Of a DNA stretch of 25,844 nucleotides, positions 14,429 to 22,275 are shown piece by piece. A model generated the notes under the pieces. The model was not told the DNA's origin. It ran no database searches and saw only the letters and a list, made by a program, of their open reading frames with translations. The stretch covers positions 1-25,844 of the IMG/VR virus record IMGVR_UViG_3300045885_000275, one strand, 5' to 3'. Both the position numbers and the translations under genes were made by a program. The stretch comes from a virus. How positions within the stretch are numbered: position 1 is the stretch's first letter; every line of letters starts with the position of its first letter.

Positions 14429-15264
14429 GGAACGCTCCTGACGATGTCGTCGATAACCGCCCAGCATGCCGGCCGGGCGATCTCGGCCTCGCTCCACTGG
14501 AACCAGGCGAGGTTTCCGAGGAAGGCGGTGCGAACCTCGAGGGGAAGCGTCACTGGCAGGCGGCCAAGCGCCGGCTCGTTCGGGCACACTGCGGCGGCCG
14601 CGCCGTCCTCGGCGATCGCCGGGACGCCGGCGACGATGGCGTCGACCGCAACGTTCGAATGCCGGCAATAAACCGCGGCGGCACCGCGCAACAACTGCTC
14701 GATCGACACGGTCGGCGCCGCTATCGGAATGCCGTGGGGCGCGTGCGAGCCACCGCCGCGCTTGGGGCGGAAGATCACGCGCTGGCCAGGCCAGGCGGCG
14801 CGAATCCGCTCGAGCGTCCGATCCTCCCATGCGCCGGGCTGCTCGCCATAGGTGTCGGCCGATTTCCAGCCGATCCCGATGAGATAGACGGGCCCACCGG
14901 GATCGGCGTCCTGGCGAAGAACGAGGCCGTCGGCGTGGAGACGATCGAGCGGCCGCGCTTTCGCCATGACGTACTGACGCGGATGGGCGTCATTGATCGA
15001 AACCCGGAAATGGCTGGCGCGCTTCCAGTAGCCGAGATCCCAGCCGATCACGGTCACGCCGCGCCCGCGGGCTTCCCGGAGGAGCTCCTGCGCGCGTGGA
15101 TGGCCGAGCCCCCAGAGGACGATCCGCTCGGCATTGCTCGAGGGCTCGACCAGGACAGTGACGTCATGGCCGGCGGCGGCCAGGCCCTGCTGCGAGACCC
15201 GCGCGAGCCGTGCCGCGTTCGTGTTGTTGCTGAGCCATGAGGGAACGAGAACCTCGACCCTCAC
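14425..15264 (-). CDS. Putative GT-B type glycosyltransferase
   Basis: A 279-residue protein beginning at a GTG (15264) that overlaps the preceding stop as GTGA; a longer in-frame start would lie in the upstream gene. The N-terminal half has Rossmann-like VRVEVLVPSW and LAAAGHDVTVLVEPSS. The C-terminal half has GQRVIFRPKRGG, SIEQLLRGAAAVYCRHSNVAVDAIVAGVPAI, a donor-site pattern typical of GT-B enzymes and capsule-type transferases. Exact donor and acceptor unknown. Confidence 0.7.
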   Translation of the reverse strand: MRVEVLVPSWLSNNTNAARLARVSQQGLAAAGHDVTVLVEPSSNAERIVLWGLGHPRAQELLREARGRGVTVIGWDLGYWKRASHFRVSINDAHPRQYVMAKARPLDRLHADGLVLRQDADPGGPVYLIGIGWKSADTYGEQPGAWEDRTLERIRAAWPGQRVIFRPKRGGGSHAPHGIPIAAPTVSIEQLLRGAAAVYCRHSNVAVDAIVAGVPAIAEDGAAAAVCPNEPALGRLPVTLPLEVRTAFLGNLAWFQWSEAEIARPACWAVIDDIVRSVP

Positions 15265-16646
15265 GCCGGCCAGCCCCAGATCTCGTCCATCATCACCCGC
15301 TGCAGCGGCACCATGCCGAGCGCGCCGAGGAGCATGTGCGGCGCCTGGCGGGCGTAGCCGTAGCGGGCCCAAAGGCCCTTATCCTCGAACAGCACGATCG
15401 GCCGGCAGCGGCGGAGCGTCTGCTCGGCACCGGTGAGGGCGTCGACCTCGCTCCCCTCCACGTCCAGCTTCAGGAAATCGACGTCCTCGAGCTCCAGGGA
15501 ATCGAGGGCGATCACTTTCACCGCATCGCCCTTGGTGACGTACCGGGCACCGAGGTTGCCGGTGCGCTTGGCGCGATCATCGCCCTCGAGCGTCATGGCG
15601 ACGCGGCCTGGCGCAGCGCCAAGCGCCAGCTGCCGGGCCTCGACGTTCGTCGCCTGGCGCTTGGCGAGATTCGCCATCAGCGCCTCGTAGGTGTCGGCGC
15701 TCGGCTCGAACGCGACCACCCGCTCGAACTGCTTCGCCAGCGGTACTGACCAGGTGCCGACGTGGGCGCCACCGTCGATCGCCACCCGGCAGGCGCGGCG
15801 CGTCTTGGCGATCTTCAGCGCCGCCTCGAGGTGGGCGCGCTGGTAACCGCCGCCGGCGTCGAGCTCCTGGGCCATGAAGCGATCGCCGTCGGCGAAGAAC
15901 CAGCCACGCGCCTCGAGCATCGGGGGGAACGTCCTCTCGAAATAGGCGCGCATGTGAAGCTTCCGGAGGTACCGGAAATCGACCACCACGCCGTCGGGCT
16001 TGGGCTTCCGGAAAAGGGGCGTGGTGAAGGCCTTCAGCACTTGGTCGGCATCGAAGTAGCGGACGATCCCGAGCCGATGCACCACCCGGCTCCCCGGCCG
16101 CACCGGCTGGAACAATCGCGCGAACGGTATGGTGTCGCCACCCCAGACGACCTCGGCCTCGGTGAGGTTGCGCGTCTCCTCGAGCGCGGCGGCATAGAGG
16201 CGGCCGAGCGCCAGGCGGCGCGCGACCGGCCAGAACTGCACCGAATTGAGGAGCGGCCGATCGGGGTGCTCGCGCGCCACCAGGCCGAGATCGAAGTCGC
16301 CCACCCGGAACCAGCGCCCGAGATCCCCGAACACCAGCATGTCGGGCATCACCAGGATGGTGTCCCGGTCGAAGTCGGCGCTGCCGATGTAGCGGAGCGC
16401 CACCTCGATGATCCAGATCATCAACCGGCGGCTCAGCGTGTGATACCGGAACGTCGGGCCCGGCAGATCGGTGTCAACGTCGGTGAGCGTCACCACCTCG
16501 GCACCGCAGGCCCGGAGCACGCTCTCGCGCATCATCGCGATCGCCGCGAGCCAGTCGAACGGCCCGCCGTTCGTCTCGACGTCCTTCTGCTCCTTCGATT
16601 CCGGCTTGAACGGCCGGAACGGCGTCACGACCCGGAAGCTGGGCAA
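15261..16646 (-). CDS. Glycosyltransferase-like / FkbM methyltransferase fusion
   Basis: A 461-residue two-domain protein. Residues ~1-240 look like a GT-A-type transferase (FRVVTPFRPF; VVTLTDVDTDLPG; DRDTILVMPDMLVFGDLGRW; VVWGGDTIPFARLF). Residues ~270-461 are an FkbM-family SAM-dependent methyltransferase: motif I AIDGGAHVGTWSVPLA (D291), VVAFEPSADTYEALMANL, and VDFLKLDVEGSEVDALTG (D395). FkbM enzymes O-methylate sugars and natural products, so one polypeptide may add and then cap a sugar. It overlaps both neighbours (22 and 4 bases). Confidence 0.85.
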   Translation of the reverse strand: MPSFRVVTPFRPFKPESKEQKDVETNGGPFDWLAAIAMMRESVLRACGAEVVTLTDVDTDLPGPTFRYHTLSRRLMIWIIEVALRYIGSADFDRDTILVMPDMLVFGDLGRWFRVGDFDLGLVAREHPDRPLLNSVQFWPVARRLALGRLYAAALEETRNLTEAEVVWGGDTIPFARLFQPVRPGSRVVHRLGIVRYFDADQVLKAFTTPLFRKPKPDGVVVDFRYLRKLHMRAYFERTFPPMLEARGWFFADGDRFMAQELDAGGGYQRAHLEAALKIAKTRRACRVAIDGGAHVGTWSVPLAKQFERVVAFEPSADTYEALMANLAKRQATNVEARQLALGAAPGRVAMTLEGDDRAKRTGNLGARYVTKGDAVKVIALDSLELEDVDFLKLDVEGSEVDALTGAEQTLRRCRPIVLFEDKGLWARYGYARQAPHMLLGALGMVPLQRVMMDEIWGWPA

Positions 16647-17482
16647 TTGGCGTCCGCCATCACGGCCTCGAGGATCCGGGTGAGGTTCGCGGCGACGAAC
16701 GGCAGGCGGGGCGCCACGCCAAGCATCATCTCCCGCCGCCAGCGCCGCTCGAGCGGATCGGCCAGGACGTCGAGCATCATGCCGAACGCCGCCTCATCTT
16801 CGGCCCAGAGCTCGCCGCCCGAGGCCTGCTCGAGGTAGCCGGCCTCGTTTCGGCCGACGAACGGCACGCCGGCGACCTGGGCGTTGCTGAGCTTCAGGCC
16901 GGATTTCCAGTTGCGGGTGGCGTAGGTGTCGTAGGGCCCGGCGCGCATCGCCACCACGACATCGGCCATCAGGTAGTTGACCGGGTTCATCACGAAGCAC
17001 GCGCCGCGCTTCTCGCAGGCGCGGGTGAGCCAGGCGCGGGCGTCGCCGAGGTAGGCGGCGGCGCCCTCGTAGGCGACCACGCCGAGCCGCTCTCGGATCG
17101 GGATCACGCCCCGCTCCCACCCGTGGTGCACGAGCGAATAGGGCGAGCCAAGATCATCGGCCATCCGCCGGGTGGCGCCGATGATCGCCTTCGCGTTGAT
17201 CGAGGCGGCCCGACGCCTGGCGTCGGCCACCAGGGCGGAGCGTGGCGCCGGCGTCGTCTGCTCAAAGAAATCGAGGGCGTCCCACACCACCGGGCGACCG
17301 CAGGCCCGCAGCACCGCGGCCAGCTGGGGCGGAATCCGTTTGACGGCGATCACGACGTCGGCGAGCGACAGCACGCGGAGCGGGGCGTCGAGCACGACGG
17401 TCGCGCCGATCGCCCGGCCGAGCTGGCGGCCCCGGATCTGGAAGCTGGCGGCTTTCGAGGAGCCGGTGATCACGACGCGCAT
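16625..17482 (-). CDS. Putative GT-B type glycosyltransferase, first gene of the cassette
   Basis: A 285-residue protein beginning MRVVITGSSKAASFQIRGRQLG. Later blocks (LADVVIAVKRIPPQLAAVL, PVVWDALDFFEQ, and NWKSGLKLSNAQVAGVPFVGRNEAGYLEQ) fit a GT-B fold with a degenerate nucleotide-sugar site; a glycosyltransferase call rests on pattern and company. ATG at 17482 has no clear ribosome-binding site and stands only 20 bases after a terminator hairpin, so expression is probably controlled by read-through or antitermination. Confidence 0.65.
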   Translation of the reverse strand: MRVVITGSSKAASFQIRGRQLGRAIGATVVLDAPLRVLSLADVVIAVKRIPPQLAAVLRACGRPVVWDALDFFEQTTPAPRSALVADARRRAASINAKAIIGATRRMADDLGSPYSLVHHGWERGVIPIRERLGVVAYEGAAAYLGDARAWLTRACEKRGACFVMNPVNYLMADVVVAMRAGPYDTYATRNWKSGLKLSNAQVAGVPFVGRNEAGYLEQASGGELWAEDEAAFGMMLDVLADPLERRWRREMMLGVAPRLPFVAANLTRILEAVMADANCPASGS

Positions 17483-17501: not shown

Positions 17502-17530
17502 CAAAAAACCCGCCGCGAGAACCGGGCGGG
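17502..17530 (-). terminator. Rho-independent terminator in front of the glycan cassette
   Basis: On the minus strand CCCGCC (17530-17525) pairs with GGCGGG (17514-17509) around a 10-base loop and is followed by TTTTTTG. It sits between the early operon and the first glycosyltransferase and should stop most leftward transcription. Confidence 0.75.
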
Positions 17531-17639
17531 CGCAAGAACTGCTGTCGGCTTTTTCCACTATTCGATCTGGAAAGCATCGTCAAGCGCCTTCAGGTAGTGC
17601 CTCAGTTTGAATTTCGGGGGTCCGTTCGGCTCGGTTGTC

Positions 17640-17660
17640 AACGCCTGAACGCATGGCGTT
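17640..17660. repeat. Short inverted repeat inside the MITE
   Basis: AACGCC (17640-17645) and GGCGTT (17655-17660) are complementary across a 9-base loop. They lie upstream of the possible promoter and could be a weak hairpin or binding site. Confidence 0.4.
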
Positions 17661-17675
17661 AAGTTGATCTAATAA

Positions 17676-17698
17676 CTTGACGCTAAGCATGCTTAGCG
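17676..17698 (+). promoter_or_regulatory. Perfect 18-bp palindrome overlapping a possible -35 box
   Basis: CGCTAAGCATGCTTAGCG (17681-17698) is fully self-complementary and directly follows/overlaps TTGACG (17677-17682), a near-consensus -35. It stands 18 bases before the ATG of the truncated gene. The arrangement suggests an autoregulated promoter carried within the mobile element. Confidence 0.5.
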
Positions 17699-17716
17699 CA
17701 AAGCATCGGAGGTTCC

Positions 17717-17887
17717 ATGCCCCGCGGCCCCAAGGGTGAGAAGCGTCCCGCCGACGTGATCGGATTTCAAACTGAGGCACTACCCGCCTTCACGGGCTCC
17801 GCTCGTAGAAGTCGGCGAGCGAGCCGAGGGCGATCCGAAGGCCTGCGCGGCCGGCGATCACCGCCTCGCGCGGATCCCGCACGTTGA
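17717..17887 (+). pseudogene. Truncated passenger gene start of the MITE, fused to antisense sequence
   Basis: ATG at 17717 follows GGAGGTTCC, an excellent ribosome-binding site. The first 16 codons read MPRGPKGEKRPADVIG, which I recognise as the conserved start of a short alphaproteobacterial protein (sometimes called histone H1-like or RNA-binding). After codon 16 the normal continuation is missing: the frame enters the right inverted repeat (FQTEALP) and then runs antisense through the DUF6456-like gene as an Arg-rich tail to a stop at 17887, 56 codons in all. The gene is therefore broken. It may still make a short peptide and an antisense transcript across the end of the early operon. Confidence 0.7.
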
Positions 17888-18353
17888 AGATGGCGTGGCC
17901 GAGGTGCTCGAGCGCCCGCTCCTGGACAACGCCGAGCCAGAGCACGTCCCACACCACCCCATTGATCGCGCGGCGGAGCCGGCGGTGGCGAATCCGGGCG
18001 TCGGCAATTTCCTGGGTGCTGAACACGCTCGGGACGCGCGGCGAAAATCCGGACCCGCCGCGCGCCCAGTCGACCGTCATGGCAGCAGGGTCGACCGCGG
18101 CCATGTAGGTGTCGGCGCGCAGCTTGTCGCCGGCGTCGTGCTCGCGCTGGGTCAGGAATCCGGCGTTCAACAGCCGGTCGATCGGCGCCGCGATGATGCG
18201 CTGCCGACCGCTGGGATCGAGCTCCAGCTCGGCCTCGCCCAGTTGGCGGATGCGCTCGGGCGTGGTCTTCACCGCCGGCACCGCCGGCACCGCCACAAGG
18301 GCGGCCGCCTTCCGGCGCCGCGCACGTCCCCGGCCGCGATGCTTCCGGGTCAA
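17790..18353 (-). CDS. DUF6456-like regulatory protein
   Basis: A 187-residue protein probably starting with TTG at 18353, which overlaps the helicase stop as TTGA; a downstream GTG is possible. A basic tail (RKHRGRGRARRRK) is followed by a helical domain: PIDRLLNAGFLTQREHDAGDKLRADTYMAA, DWARGG, and a C-terminal WLGVVQERALEHLGH ... GLRIALGSLADFYERSP. The AGDKLRAD motif and final LRxALxxLAxxY pattern resemble DUF6456, found in alphaproteobacterial DNA-binding proteins. Function unknown; a replication or regulatory role is inferred from context. Its stop lies inside the target duplication of the inserted element. Confidence 0.65.
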   Translation of the reverse strand: MTRKHRGRGRARRRKAAALVAVPAVPAVKTTPERIRQLGEAELELDPSGRQRIIAAPIDRLLNAGFLTQREHDAGDKLRADTYMAAVDPAAMTVDWARGGSGFSPRVPSVFSTQEIADARIRHRRLRRAINGVVWDVLWLGVVQERALEHLGHAIFNVRDPREAVIAGRAGLRIALGSLADFYERSP

Positions 18354-20278: not shown

Positions 20279-20550
20279 GGGGCGGCCCATTTCCGGCACG
20301 CTGGAGCGCGCGCCAGAATGTCGGTGGCGCGGCCGTTCGTCCAAGCCCGGCGCATCAACGCGCACTTGATCCAGCGCTTGCGCCCGCTCCGCTCGCGATC
20401 GGCGTGCTGGCAACTGCCGCACGTCTCGCCGGCGGGCCCGGAGCCAGGCGGGGCCGCGTAGCCGCGCGGCTCGACGTAGTGCTTCCCGCGTTGCGGGACC
20501 GTCACATCGGCGCCGGCGATCGTGCGGAAGGTGAGCTGCTCGCCGGTCAC
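20275..20550 (-). CDS. Small Cys-rich phage protein
   Basis: A 91-residue protein overlapping GcrA by 4 bases. The C-terminal half has C44-x2-C47, C63 and C85 in the order CGSCxH ... KCAL ... TDILARAPACRKW, a pattern seen in small phage proteins next to replication genes and probably a zinc or Fe-S site. The N-terminal half (FRTIAGADVTVPQRGKHYVEPRG) looks beta-rich. Function unknown. Confidence 0.8.
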   Translation of the reverse strand: MTGEQLTFRTIAGADVTVPQRGKHYVEPRGYAAPPGSGPAGETCGSCQHADRERSGRKRWIKCALMRRAWTNGRATDILARAPACRKWAAP

Positions 20551-21131
20551 GCCGCCCGCCTCCCGATCTGGTAGCAGCGGAGCGCGTGCTCCTTGCAGTA
20601 GGGCGTCCCGGCGAACGTCGCCTCGCCGCAGTAGAGGAACGGGCTGCGATCGGTGGTGATGAACCGGCAGGTGTTGCCGTTCAGATCATCGATCGTGATG
20701 GTGGGGCGGGCGACGGGCTCAGCCCCCTGTCGCGCGGCCGCCGCCTCTACTCGGCGGCCGCGCTCAATCCCCGTTGGCGCCGCAGGCGGCGCGACGGGAA
20801 TGCCGGGGGCCTTGCGAGCCGTACCGGATCGCCCTGGGGTATTCGGTTTCGGTGCCACCCACCGATACGACGGCTTCGGCCCGGTCGGGCCGCGGATCGG
20901 GATCGGGGGCGGCGGCTTAGGCCGCGGCGGCCCGGCACTGGGTTTCAATCCGCGCTTCAGGCGGAGCCGGTGCAGCTTCCCGAGGACGGCGTTCCGGGTG
21001 ATGCCGCCGAGCTCTGCGGCGATCGTCTTGGCGGACCACCCGTCGAGCCACAACCGCTTCAACCGCGCCAGGCGTTCCGGCGTCCAATCGGTGCCGCGGG
21101 GCGACTTGACCGCTTCGCGCAGCTTGCTCAT
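20547..21131 (-). CDS. gcrA: GcrA-family cell-cycle regulator
   Basis: A 194-residue protein. The N-terminal helix-turn-helix (TDWTPERLARLKRLWLDGWSAKTIAAELGGITRNAVLGKLHRL) is the GcrA signature. A long Pro-rich linker follows. The C-terminus has TCRFITTDRSPFLYCGE and TPYCKEHA, the Cys-containing region that in chromosomal GcrA contacts sigma-70. GcrA activates transcription at promoters methylated at GANTC. Phage copies could redirect host RNA polymerase to phage promoters or disturb the host cell cycle (inference). ATG at 21131 overlaps the resolvase stop as ATGA; a longer start would add Arg-rich nonsense. Confidence 0.92.
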   Translation of the reverse strand: MSKLREAVKSPRGTDWTPERLARLKRLWLDGWSAKTIAAELGGITRNAVLGKLHRLRLKRGLKPSAGPPRPKPPPPIPIRGPTGPKPSYRWVAPKPNTPGRSGTARKAPGIPVAPPAAPTGIERGRRVEAAAARQGAEPVARPTITIDDLNGNTCRFITTDRSPFLYCGEATFAGTPYCKEHALRCYQIGRRAA

Positions 21132-21679
21132 GCCCGCGCCTCGCCGAACATCACGAGCTCGCGCGGCGGGATCCGGCAGAGCGTCGCCGCCGCCCAATCG
21201 AAGACGCAGCACGCGTCGGCGCGGTCGTCGTCCTCGCAGCCGCGCGGGAGGTAGCCGAGCATCACGGCGCGCGAGACCACCGCCCGCTTGGTCTCCTCGC
21301 GGGTGCCGGCGCTCCCCCGCCCCATGAAGTGCTTCCGGGCGGTGGCGCTGTTCACCTCGACCAGGCGGATCGCGAACCGCTGGGTCATCGCCTGCACCAC
21401 GCCCGCCAGGCGGTGGAGGAGAAGCATCGTCTCCTCGGCGTTGTTGAGGCGGGCCATGGCGGCGATCGAGAGCGGCGCCTCGATCACCACCAGGTCCGGG
21501 CGCTCAGCCGTCCACCGCTCGCGGAGAAATTCGAGGAGATTTCCGAGCGCGACCGCGGCCGGCTCGGTCGGCTTCTTCAACACCACCGTCCCCGACACCG
21601 GCAGCGACCCGGCCGCACCGACGGCGAACCCGGTCCGCTGGCCGAGATCGAGGCAAAAGAGGTGGCGAGGCTGCGCCAT
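21128..21679 (-). CDS. RuvC-like Holliday-junction resolvase
   Basis: A 183-residue RNase H-fold nuclease. Acidic catalytic positions fit RuvC: D11 in LFCLDLGQRTGF, E67 in LVVIEAPLS, and the C-terminal cluster DDDRADACCVFDWA (D151-D155, D161). VNSATARKHFMGRG is a typical substrate-contact region. It probably resolves branched phage DNA before packaging. A gap of 26 bases separates it from the preceding gene; GcrA is coupled downstream. Confidence 0.85.
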   Translation of the reverse strand: MAQPRHLFCLDLGQRTGFAVGAAGSLPVSGTVVLKKPTEPAAVALGNLLEFLRERWTAERPDLVVIEAPLSIAAMARLNNAEETMLLLHRLAGVVQAMTQRFAIRLVEVNSATARKHFMGRGSAGTREETKRAVVSRAVMLGYLPRGCEDDDRADACCVFDWAAATLCRIPPRELVMFGEARA

Positions 21680-21705: not shown

Positions 21706-22275
21706 TTAGACGACCTGGTGGGTGGGCTTGGCGTCGCCGAGCGGCGCGATATCGGGCGGGGTCTTTCCGATCTTGAAGATGGCAGCCTGACCTTCCTGCC
21801 ACCCCTTCATCCACGCCTTGAACTGCGGGACCTCGGGCGCATGCGGCGGCTTGGCGGCCAGGCCTTCCATGCCGGCCTTCTTCCCCTCGGCAAAGGCGCG
21901 CTCGGTCGCCGGCCGCGGGTCGCTGGCGTCGGTGAACAGATCGCTCTGCTGCCCGAACGGGAGGTTCATCCACCGGGCGACCTGGAGCAGCCGCTCGACC
22001 TCGGCACGGAGATCCGCCTCGCCCTCGTCGGTTTCGAGCAGGATCGCGTCCTTGATCGATTTCACCGCCTTGTCGCCGAGCTCGGCCTTGGCCTGCTTGC
22101 AGACGTTCTTCAGCGCGGCGTCCGCCGTCTTCTTCTTCGCGAGCGCCGCCTGGTAGTGGCGCTTGTGCTGGAAGAACAGCGCCTGGCGCTGCTCGTCGGT
22201 GAGCTCCACCGCCTTGCTGTTGTGGCCGATGCCGTTGTCGCCGGCGTCGGCGTCCTTACGCTTGCGCGCCATCAT
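21706..22275 (-). CDS. Unknown protein with Rmf/CrpP-like C-terminus
   Basis: A protein of 189 residues (188 if the second of two adjacent ATGs is used; AAGGAGCCC precedes both, and the first overlaps the upstream stop as ATGA). Residues 25-110 are charged helices (EQRQALFFQHKRHYQAALAK). Residues ~128-166 carry AFAEGKKAGMEGLAAKPP and AWMKGWQEGQ, matching the ribosome-modulation-factor/CrpP pattern of GxxAGxxG ... P ... W..GW..G. Such domains pause ribosomes or modify drugs in other settings; here the fit is by pattern only. Confidence 0.7.
   Translation of the reverse strand: MMARKRKDADAGDNGIGHNSKAVELTDEQRQALFFQHKRHYQAALAKKKTADAALKNVCKQAKAELGDKAVKSIKDAILLETDEGEADLRAEVERLLQVARWMNLPFGQQSDLFTDASDPRPATERAFAEGKKAGMEGLAAKPPHAPEVPQFKAWMKGWQEGQAAIFKIGKTPPDIAPLGDAKPTHQVV

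Follow-up and report, generated by a model that had tools for sequence, protein, structure and literature searches.

A 192-bp MITE-like insertion in a viral contig, probably derived from IS1-like passenger transposons

The window, by which we mean the whole 25,844-nt stretch of DNA that was analysed, is a 25.8-kb virus contig encoding a portal protein, a head protease/major head protein, both terminase subunits, a primase/helicase, a RuvC-like resolvase and GcrA-like and CI/S24-like regulators, and it belongs to a tailed, probably temperate phage. The GcrA-like gene suggests that the host is an alphaproteobacterium. Two minus-strand genes of the early operon, at 20547-21212 and 21706-22275, code for a GcrA-like cell-cycle regulator (PF07750, E 1e-26) and a protein with an RMF-like (ribosome modulation factor) domain. 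Further along the leftward genes, a protein with a C-terminal FkbM methyltransferase domain is encoded at 15261-16646 on the minus strand; its gene adjoins a 285-aa gene without a family match, and the two make up what an earlier, sequence-only reading of this DNA called the glycan cassette. The insertion that is the subject of this study lies upstream of these genes and next to a gene with a DUF6456-like domain, whose core extends from a GTG at 18272 to a stop at 17790 (Table 1). Between the insertion and the start of the next leftward gene at 17482 the minus strand reads CCCGCCCGGTTCTCGCGGCGGGTTTTTTG, a likely intrinsic terminator that is absent from the consensus-scan list.

The insertion is a 192-bp element (17593-17784), flanked on both sides by a perfect 8-bp target duplication, CGCCTTCA. 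Its ends, GGTAGTGCCTCAGTTTGAA and TTCAAACTGAGGCACTACC, form inverted repeats that are perfect over 19 bp, and the inverted arms can be followed for 24 nt at 92% complementarity. The sequence-only reading had reported a 192-bp element with perfect ends and a perfect duplication, and repeat analysis bears this out. When inverted repeats of at least 14 bp spaced within 600 bp were considered, those of the element were the only ones in the whole window; a simulation put the chance number of 14-bp seed pairs at 0.59, and the sole 19-mer pair was that of the element. Folded as single-stranded DNA, the element is far better than its shuffles (z -5.7), and its GC content is 55.7%, compared with 67.7% for the window. 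Rfam gave zero matches for the element, and a consensus scan found no sigma-70 promoter in it. To judge from its letters, the element is more than two ends plus filler, and retains a putative operator and a leader, while a passenger gene of its parent family survives as its first 16 codons. Inward from the left end, CTTGACGCTAAGCAT is joined directly to TGCTTAGCGCAAAGCA, a cargo-type site, followed by GGAGG, an ATG, 16 codons and the right end. The ATG is located at 17717, the retained codons occupy element nt 125-172 with the right end next to them, and the reading frame opened here continues beyond the element to a stop near 17885.

Table 1. Coordinates of the features at the insertion site (positions in the window)
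Feature	Position	Strand	Remarks
Target-site duplication, left copy, CGCCTTCA	17585..17592		
Left terminal inverted repeat, GGTAGTGCCTCAGTTTGAA	17593..17611	+	Perfect over 19 bp; agrees with GGnnnTG of IS1-family ends
CTTGACGCTAAGCAT	17676..17690	+	Identical to the core of the transposase promoter (-35 plus operator) in the full-length relatives L238, L246, L254 and L258
Leader motif, ATGCTTAGCGCAAAGCA	17689..17705	+	Element nt 97-113; contains the palindromic site TGCTTNNCGNNAAGCA at 17690-17705
Shine-Dalgarno GGAGG and passenger-gene start (MPRGPKGEKRPADVIG), truncated	17709..17764	+	
Right terminal inverted repeat	17766..17784	-	Minus strand reads GGTAGTGCCTCAGTTTGAA
Target-site duplication, right copy	17785..17792		Holds the TGA of the DUF6456 gene (17790-17792, minus strand)
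Upstream phage gene, DUF6456-like C-terminal domain	17790..18272	-	PF20057, E 2.5e-5, narrowly misses the Pfam cut-off
Likely intrinsic terminator, CCCGCCCGGTTCTCGCGGCGGGTTTTTT	17502..17530	-	Separates the insertion from the glycan genes downstream; by eye and RNA fold

The exact 19-bp end is present in eight IMG/VR contigs and in at least 100 stretches of GTDB genomes from many phyla and groups, among them Alphaproteobacteria, Acidobacteria, Nitrospinota, Nitrospira, Chloroflexi, Bacteroidota and others. By pairing each left end with the nearest right end, 53 elements were defined among the matches listed. Of the 53, 36 are flanked by 8-bp duplications that have no more than one mismatch (27 are perfect), compared with 0.7 expected when the right flanks are shuffled; the duplications differ between elements, and 22 of the elements measure less than 600 bp. 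A single Nitrospinota genome contains 38 end sites, many of which belong to a 141-bp element with different duplications, and therefore small elements with these ends do multiply. This 141-bp MITE family (L042, L039, L113, L080, L024, L065), with the same ends, is present in many copies in that one genome (G004). The proposal of the sequence-only reading that the 192 bp are a MITE insertion is largely upheld, the same ends being found in dozens of genomes with different 8-bp duplications. The element is short (below 600 bp) with terminal inverted repeats, it has no transposase of its own and autonomous elements bear the same ends, and its duplication has the length seen with the cognate IS (8 bp, as in L228, L251, L258 and L262). 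As for the multiple copies that the sequence-only reading had suggested looking for, the same ends do occur elsewhere with different duplications, but searches of phage, plasmid and viral collections and of about 400 genomes from the order of the Bradyrhizobium locus gave no second copy of the exact 192-bp sequence, and the exact deletion junction is absent from 2.9 million viral contigs. L046, a Rhizobium element of 192 bp with the same ends, was considered as a second copy and rejected, as its interior is unrelated. The 25.8-kb record holds the window element as a single copy and no autonomous copy, and sibling MITEs that share its ends are present in multiple copies. Several copies are customary in amplified MITE families but need not be expected of a lone remnant. 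A scenario that had been named as fatal to a MITE, in which all related phages share the same segment and flanks and no second copy exists, is excluded by the ends found elsewhere and by full-length elements.

These full-length relatives (about 1-3.8 kb) have the same ends and encode a DDE-type transposase of about 295 aa, the kind of element that had been proposed as a search target, and perfect duplications flank L228 (2680 bp), L251 (3838 bp), L258 (2981 bp) and L262 (3210 bp). The best NCBIfam model for the transposase is IS1 (NF033558, E 5e-16), with a score of 59 that is under the curated cut-off of 100. The Pfam model DDE_Tnp_IS1 (PF03400, E 9e-7) exceeds its cut-off in one of two proteins, and IS1 is the best Pfam match for one of two transposases. 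IS6 was rejected as the parent family on account of a weaker match, and IS1595 was rejected since no DDE_Tnp_IS1595 model was among the hits up to E 0.1. IS1-family ends start with GGnnnTG and the duplications measure 8-9 bp (PMC6807381, PMC10425158); the parent has GGTAGTG and 8 bp. The two frameshifted ORFs and the length of 740-1180 bp of a classical IS1 were not seen in the parent. In the parent the transposase is encoded by a single ORF without interruption, and most elements (2.2-3.8 kb) contain passengers; for this reason we call the parent IS1-like rather than a classical IS1.

Alphaproteobacterial and viral elements have a common layout, which from left to right consists of the left end, a leader motif (at a distance of 51-70 nt from that end in complete elements), a small variable ORF (sometimes none), a small ORF that opens with MPKGPKGEKRPADVIG, variable cargo, the transposase and the right end; the acidobacterial L069 and L090 share the ends, transposase and cargo without the leader motif. 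The transposase has its own promoter, typically ATGCTTGACGCTAAGCATAAAAGTTCATATATTAGGGGCATGAACAAG, and the palindrome TGCTTNNCGNNAAGCA recurs both in the cargo-leader motif and in the -35 region of the transposase promoter. Across the 1.86 Mb that were fetched, 28 of 28 TGCTTNNCGNNAAGCA sites are located in a cargo leader or a transposase promoter, a count that is partly circular as some loci were fetched by motif, and two scrambled control palindromes occur once each in the same sequence. A cleaner, motif-first search of 289 genomes from the class of the Bradyrhizobium locus gave nine exact sites; seven of these have, at a distance of 51-65 nt, an end that matches with up to 4 mismatches, six precede a KRPADVIG gene, and the remaining two lie in transposase promoters. 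Wherever it was found, the KRPADVIG passenger gene follows the left end on its inner side, always in one orientation; the exception in position is L266, in which a KRPADVIG fragment abuts the right end, its orientation unchanged. The natural reading of this arrangement is that TGCTTNNCGNNAAGCA serves as a shared operator of the cargo leader and the transposase promoter. Candidates for a protein that would bind it are the HTH domain of the transposase, for which InsA of IS1 provides a comparison (PMC12428005), and the KRPADVIG protein. At L228 962-3641, L251, L258 4375-7355, L262 2162-5371 and L035 238-2998, complete IS1-like cargo transposons were observed that have TGCTTNNCGNNAAGCA in the leader of the cargo and a site identical or nearly identical to it in the transposase promoter. 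We found no published description of a palindrome shared by a cargo leader and a transposase promoter, and the literature on ISMhu11 and on the IS1 family plus passenger genes yielded nothing useful.

It is very probable that the 192 bp in the window are a non-autonomous, MITE-like derivative of such IS1-like passenger transposons, which transposed into the phage with an 8-bp staggered cut, and internal deletion of a passenger-carrying parent is the simplest account of what is left. The parent would have consisted, in this order, of the left end, an operator-containing leader, a small passenger ORF starting with MPRGPKGEKRPADVIG, more cargo, the transposase and the right end, and everything from passenger codon 17 to the right end would have been lost. 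A full-length relative in the host or in a co-resident phage would then have supplied the transposase in trans, and the remnant would have moved into the phage, landing between the stop codon of the DUF6456 gene, the last gene of the early leftward operon, and the likely terminator of this operon. In L266 (1294 bp, 7/8 duplication) the passenger gene is cut at nearly the codon seen in the window and lies against the right end, and L257, a 573-bp element with a perfect duplication in a viral contig, is another leader-plus-fragment derivative, with the leader and MPKGPNGEKR only. Passenger truncations just after MPxGPKGxKRPADVIG were observed at L266 1501-1550, L255 near 1499, L110, L015 and window 17717-17764, two of which abut the right end. 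This recurrent breakpoint may reflect a preferred site or a search bias, as the motif search was able to detect only truncations that keep the passenger-gene start. No exact parent was found among the relatives: the operator is 97 nt from the left end in the window element, compared with 51-70 nt in the relatives, and element nt 20-96 have no close match to any parent. This unmatched stretch would also fit a chance pairing of ends around unrelated DNA, that is, a captured host promoter and gene start with no passenger-carrying parent, and many small elements, such as L046 (192 bp), do have unrelated interiors. However, the family's own operator, Shine-Dalgarno sequence and passenger start are present inside the window element, where their order and orientation are correct with respect to the left end, and the 15-mer CTTGACGCTAAGCAT is identical to the transposase-promoter core of relatives, which makes chance pairing unlikely.

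The TGA (17792-17790) of the leftward DUF6456 gene falls within the duplicated 8 bp, so that this gene was left intact by the insertion, and the sequence-only reading was right in stating that the upstream stop codon had been kept. Within the early operon the element seems to occupy the untranslated 3' end, and because it lies between this stop codon and the likely terminator, the insertion is probably near-neutral for the phage. A benefit to the phage would be a different reason for the presence of the remnant, with the leader and operator either driving an antisense RNA into the early operon or titrating a host repressor of resident transposons. The Shine-Dalgarno sequence, ATG, palindromic site and leader are retained and are antisense to the DUF6456 and primase genes, and candidate anti-phage genes stand behind the same site in full-length relatives; yet the promoter scan was negative, and the element is a single copy that is not conserved across phages, so that we regard retention for function as still less likely than chance pairing. 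Least credible is a native regulatory or structural RNA of the phage, a long hairpin after a gene such as a terminator or attenuator: the hairpin is strong and directly follows a stop codon in an intergenic gap, but identical 19-bp arms serve across phyla as paired ends of elements of 112-3838 bp with differing duplications, the GC content is unlike that of the phage, Rfam has no match, a separate likely terminator is located downstream, and matching duplications in unrelated genomes refute such an origin. Returning to the transposed deletion derivative, the perfection of the ends and duplication makes it plausible to describe the insertion as fresh, but the event is undatable, as no empty-site relative was found. 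Queries with the 285-aa downstream gene, the DUF6456 gene (160-aa core) and the primase returned primase relatives only, mostly with 30-48% identity over the best segment and without neighbouring genes, and the related phage lacking the insertion that had been hoped for was not among these flank-gene matches.

The cargo of complete elements was scanned using 18 non-transposase ORFs of at least 120 aa, a small sample of which the first eight were chosen by eye. PADLOC models matched six of the 18, namely PD-Lambda-2_B (L069, L090), RmrA (L262), HEC-04 (L251) and, more weakly, PD-T4-5 (L251, L067), compared with one of ten flanking genes at the same loci, an ABC-transporter ATPase that matched generic ATPase models. 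We consider defence-like cargo in this family to be a lead that these model matches suggest. Anti-phage-like passengers were observed at L069 332-3507, L090 2941-6641, L251, L262 2162-5371 and L067 1553-2562, in two cases within viral contigs. The end plus leader is present in 17 viral contigs, and L251, L258 and L262 are viral contigs with a complete element, a transposase and a perfect duplication; the L262 contig also encodes a major head protein and the L258 contig a tail protein. Because phages carry full-length copies as well as remnants, the helper transposase could have been provided by a co-infecting phage or a prophage as well as by the host. The viral contig L005 contains, at 981-2419, a 1439-bp element with perfect ends and without a matching duplication, in which a GNAT acetyltransferase and a small passenger ORF are encoded next to what remains of the promoter and start of the transposase (MNKLPAEKR).

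The insertion event itself is ordinary in kind. Less ordinary is the fixed architecture, with a palindrome common to the cargo leader and the transposase promoter, in bacterial genomes and in viral contigs with structural genes. We tentatively suggest that the window MITE may be a relic of an undescribed, cross-phylum IS1-like group in which the palindromic operator TGCTTNNCGNNAAGCA couples expression of the cargo, often candidate anti-phage genes, with that of the transposase, and of which phages carry both complete copies and remnants, a wider proposal that is possible but that we hold with clearly less confidence than the deletion origin. If true, this IS1-like group would act as a mobile and self-regulated carrier of defence genes between bacteria and phages. 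The cargo of interest includes homologues of PD-Lambda-2, PD-T4-5, RmrA and HEC-04, and the motif together with the 19-bp end is a simple and specific probe for finding such elements and for testing their regulation and the movement of defence genes via phages.

Among known systems, the IS1 family, including IS1 and ISAba3, is similar in its GGnnnTG ends and 8-bp duplications, and IS1 is the closest model of the parent transposase; the ISAba3 end reads GGTGGTGTTTCAAAAAG... and its duplications are 8 bp (PMC6382973). However, the parent has a single ORF of ~295 aa in place of the 232-aa frameshifted InsAB' of IS1 (PMC12428005), and parent elements reach 3.8 kb with several passenger genes. In the terms used by ISsaga (PMC3129680), the full-length relatives are transporter IS, in that IS ends enclose passengers unrelated to transposition, and several relatives with cargo and ends but without a transposase are mobile insertion cassettes. 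The window copy differs from both in having neither cargo nor transposase, and the relatives differ in the palindrome that is shared by cargo leader and transposase promoter. MITEAba12 (PMC6382973) is likewise short, with inverted ends and a target duplication and without a transposase, and an IS that has the same ends presumably mobilises it in trans, whereas the window element is GC-rich rather than AT-rich, keeps the parent's leader/operator and a gene start, is located in a phage and was found in one copy. Very small mobile elements within phage genomes are also represented by the mycobacteriophage elements MPME1 and MPME2 (PMC3029335); MPME1 (439 bp) adds 6 bp of unexplained origin at one end, whereas the window element has a clean 8-bp duplication and an IS1-like parent family.
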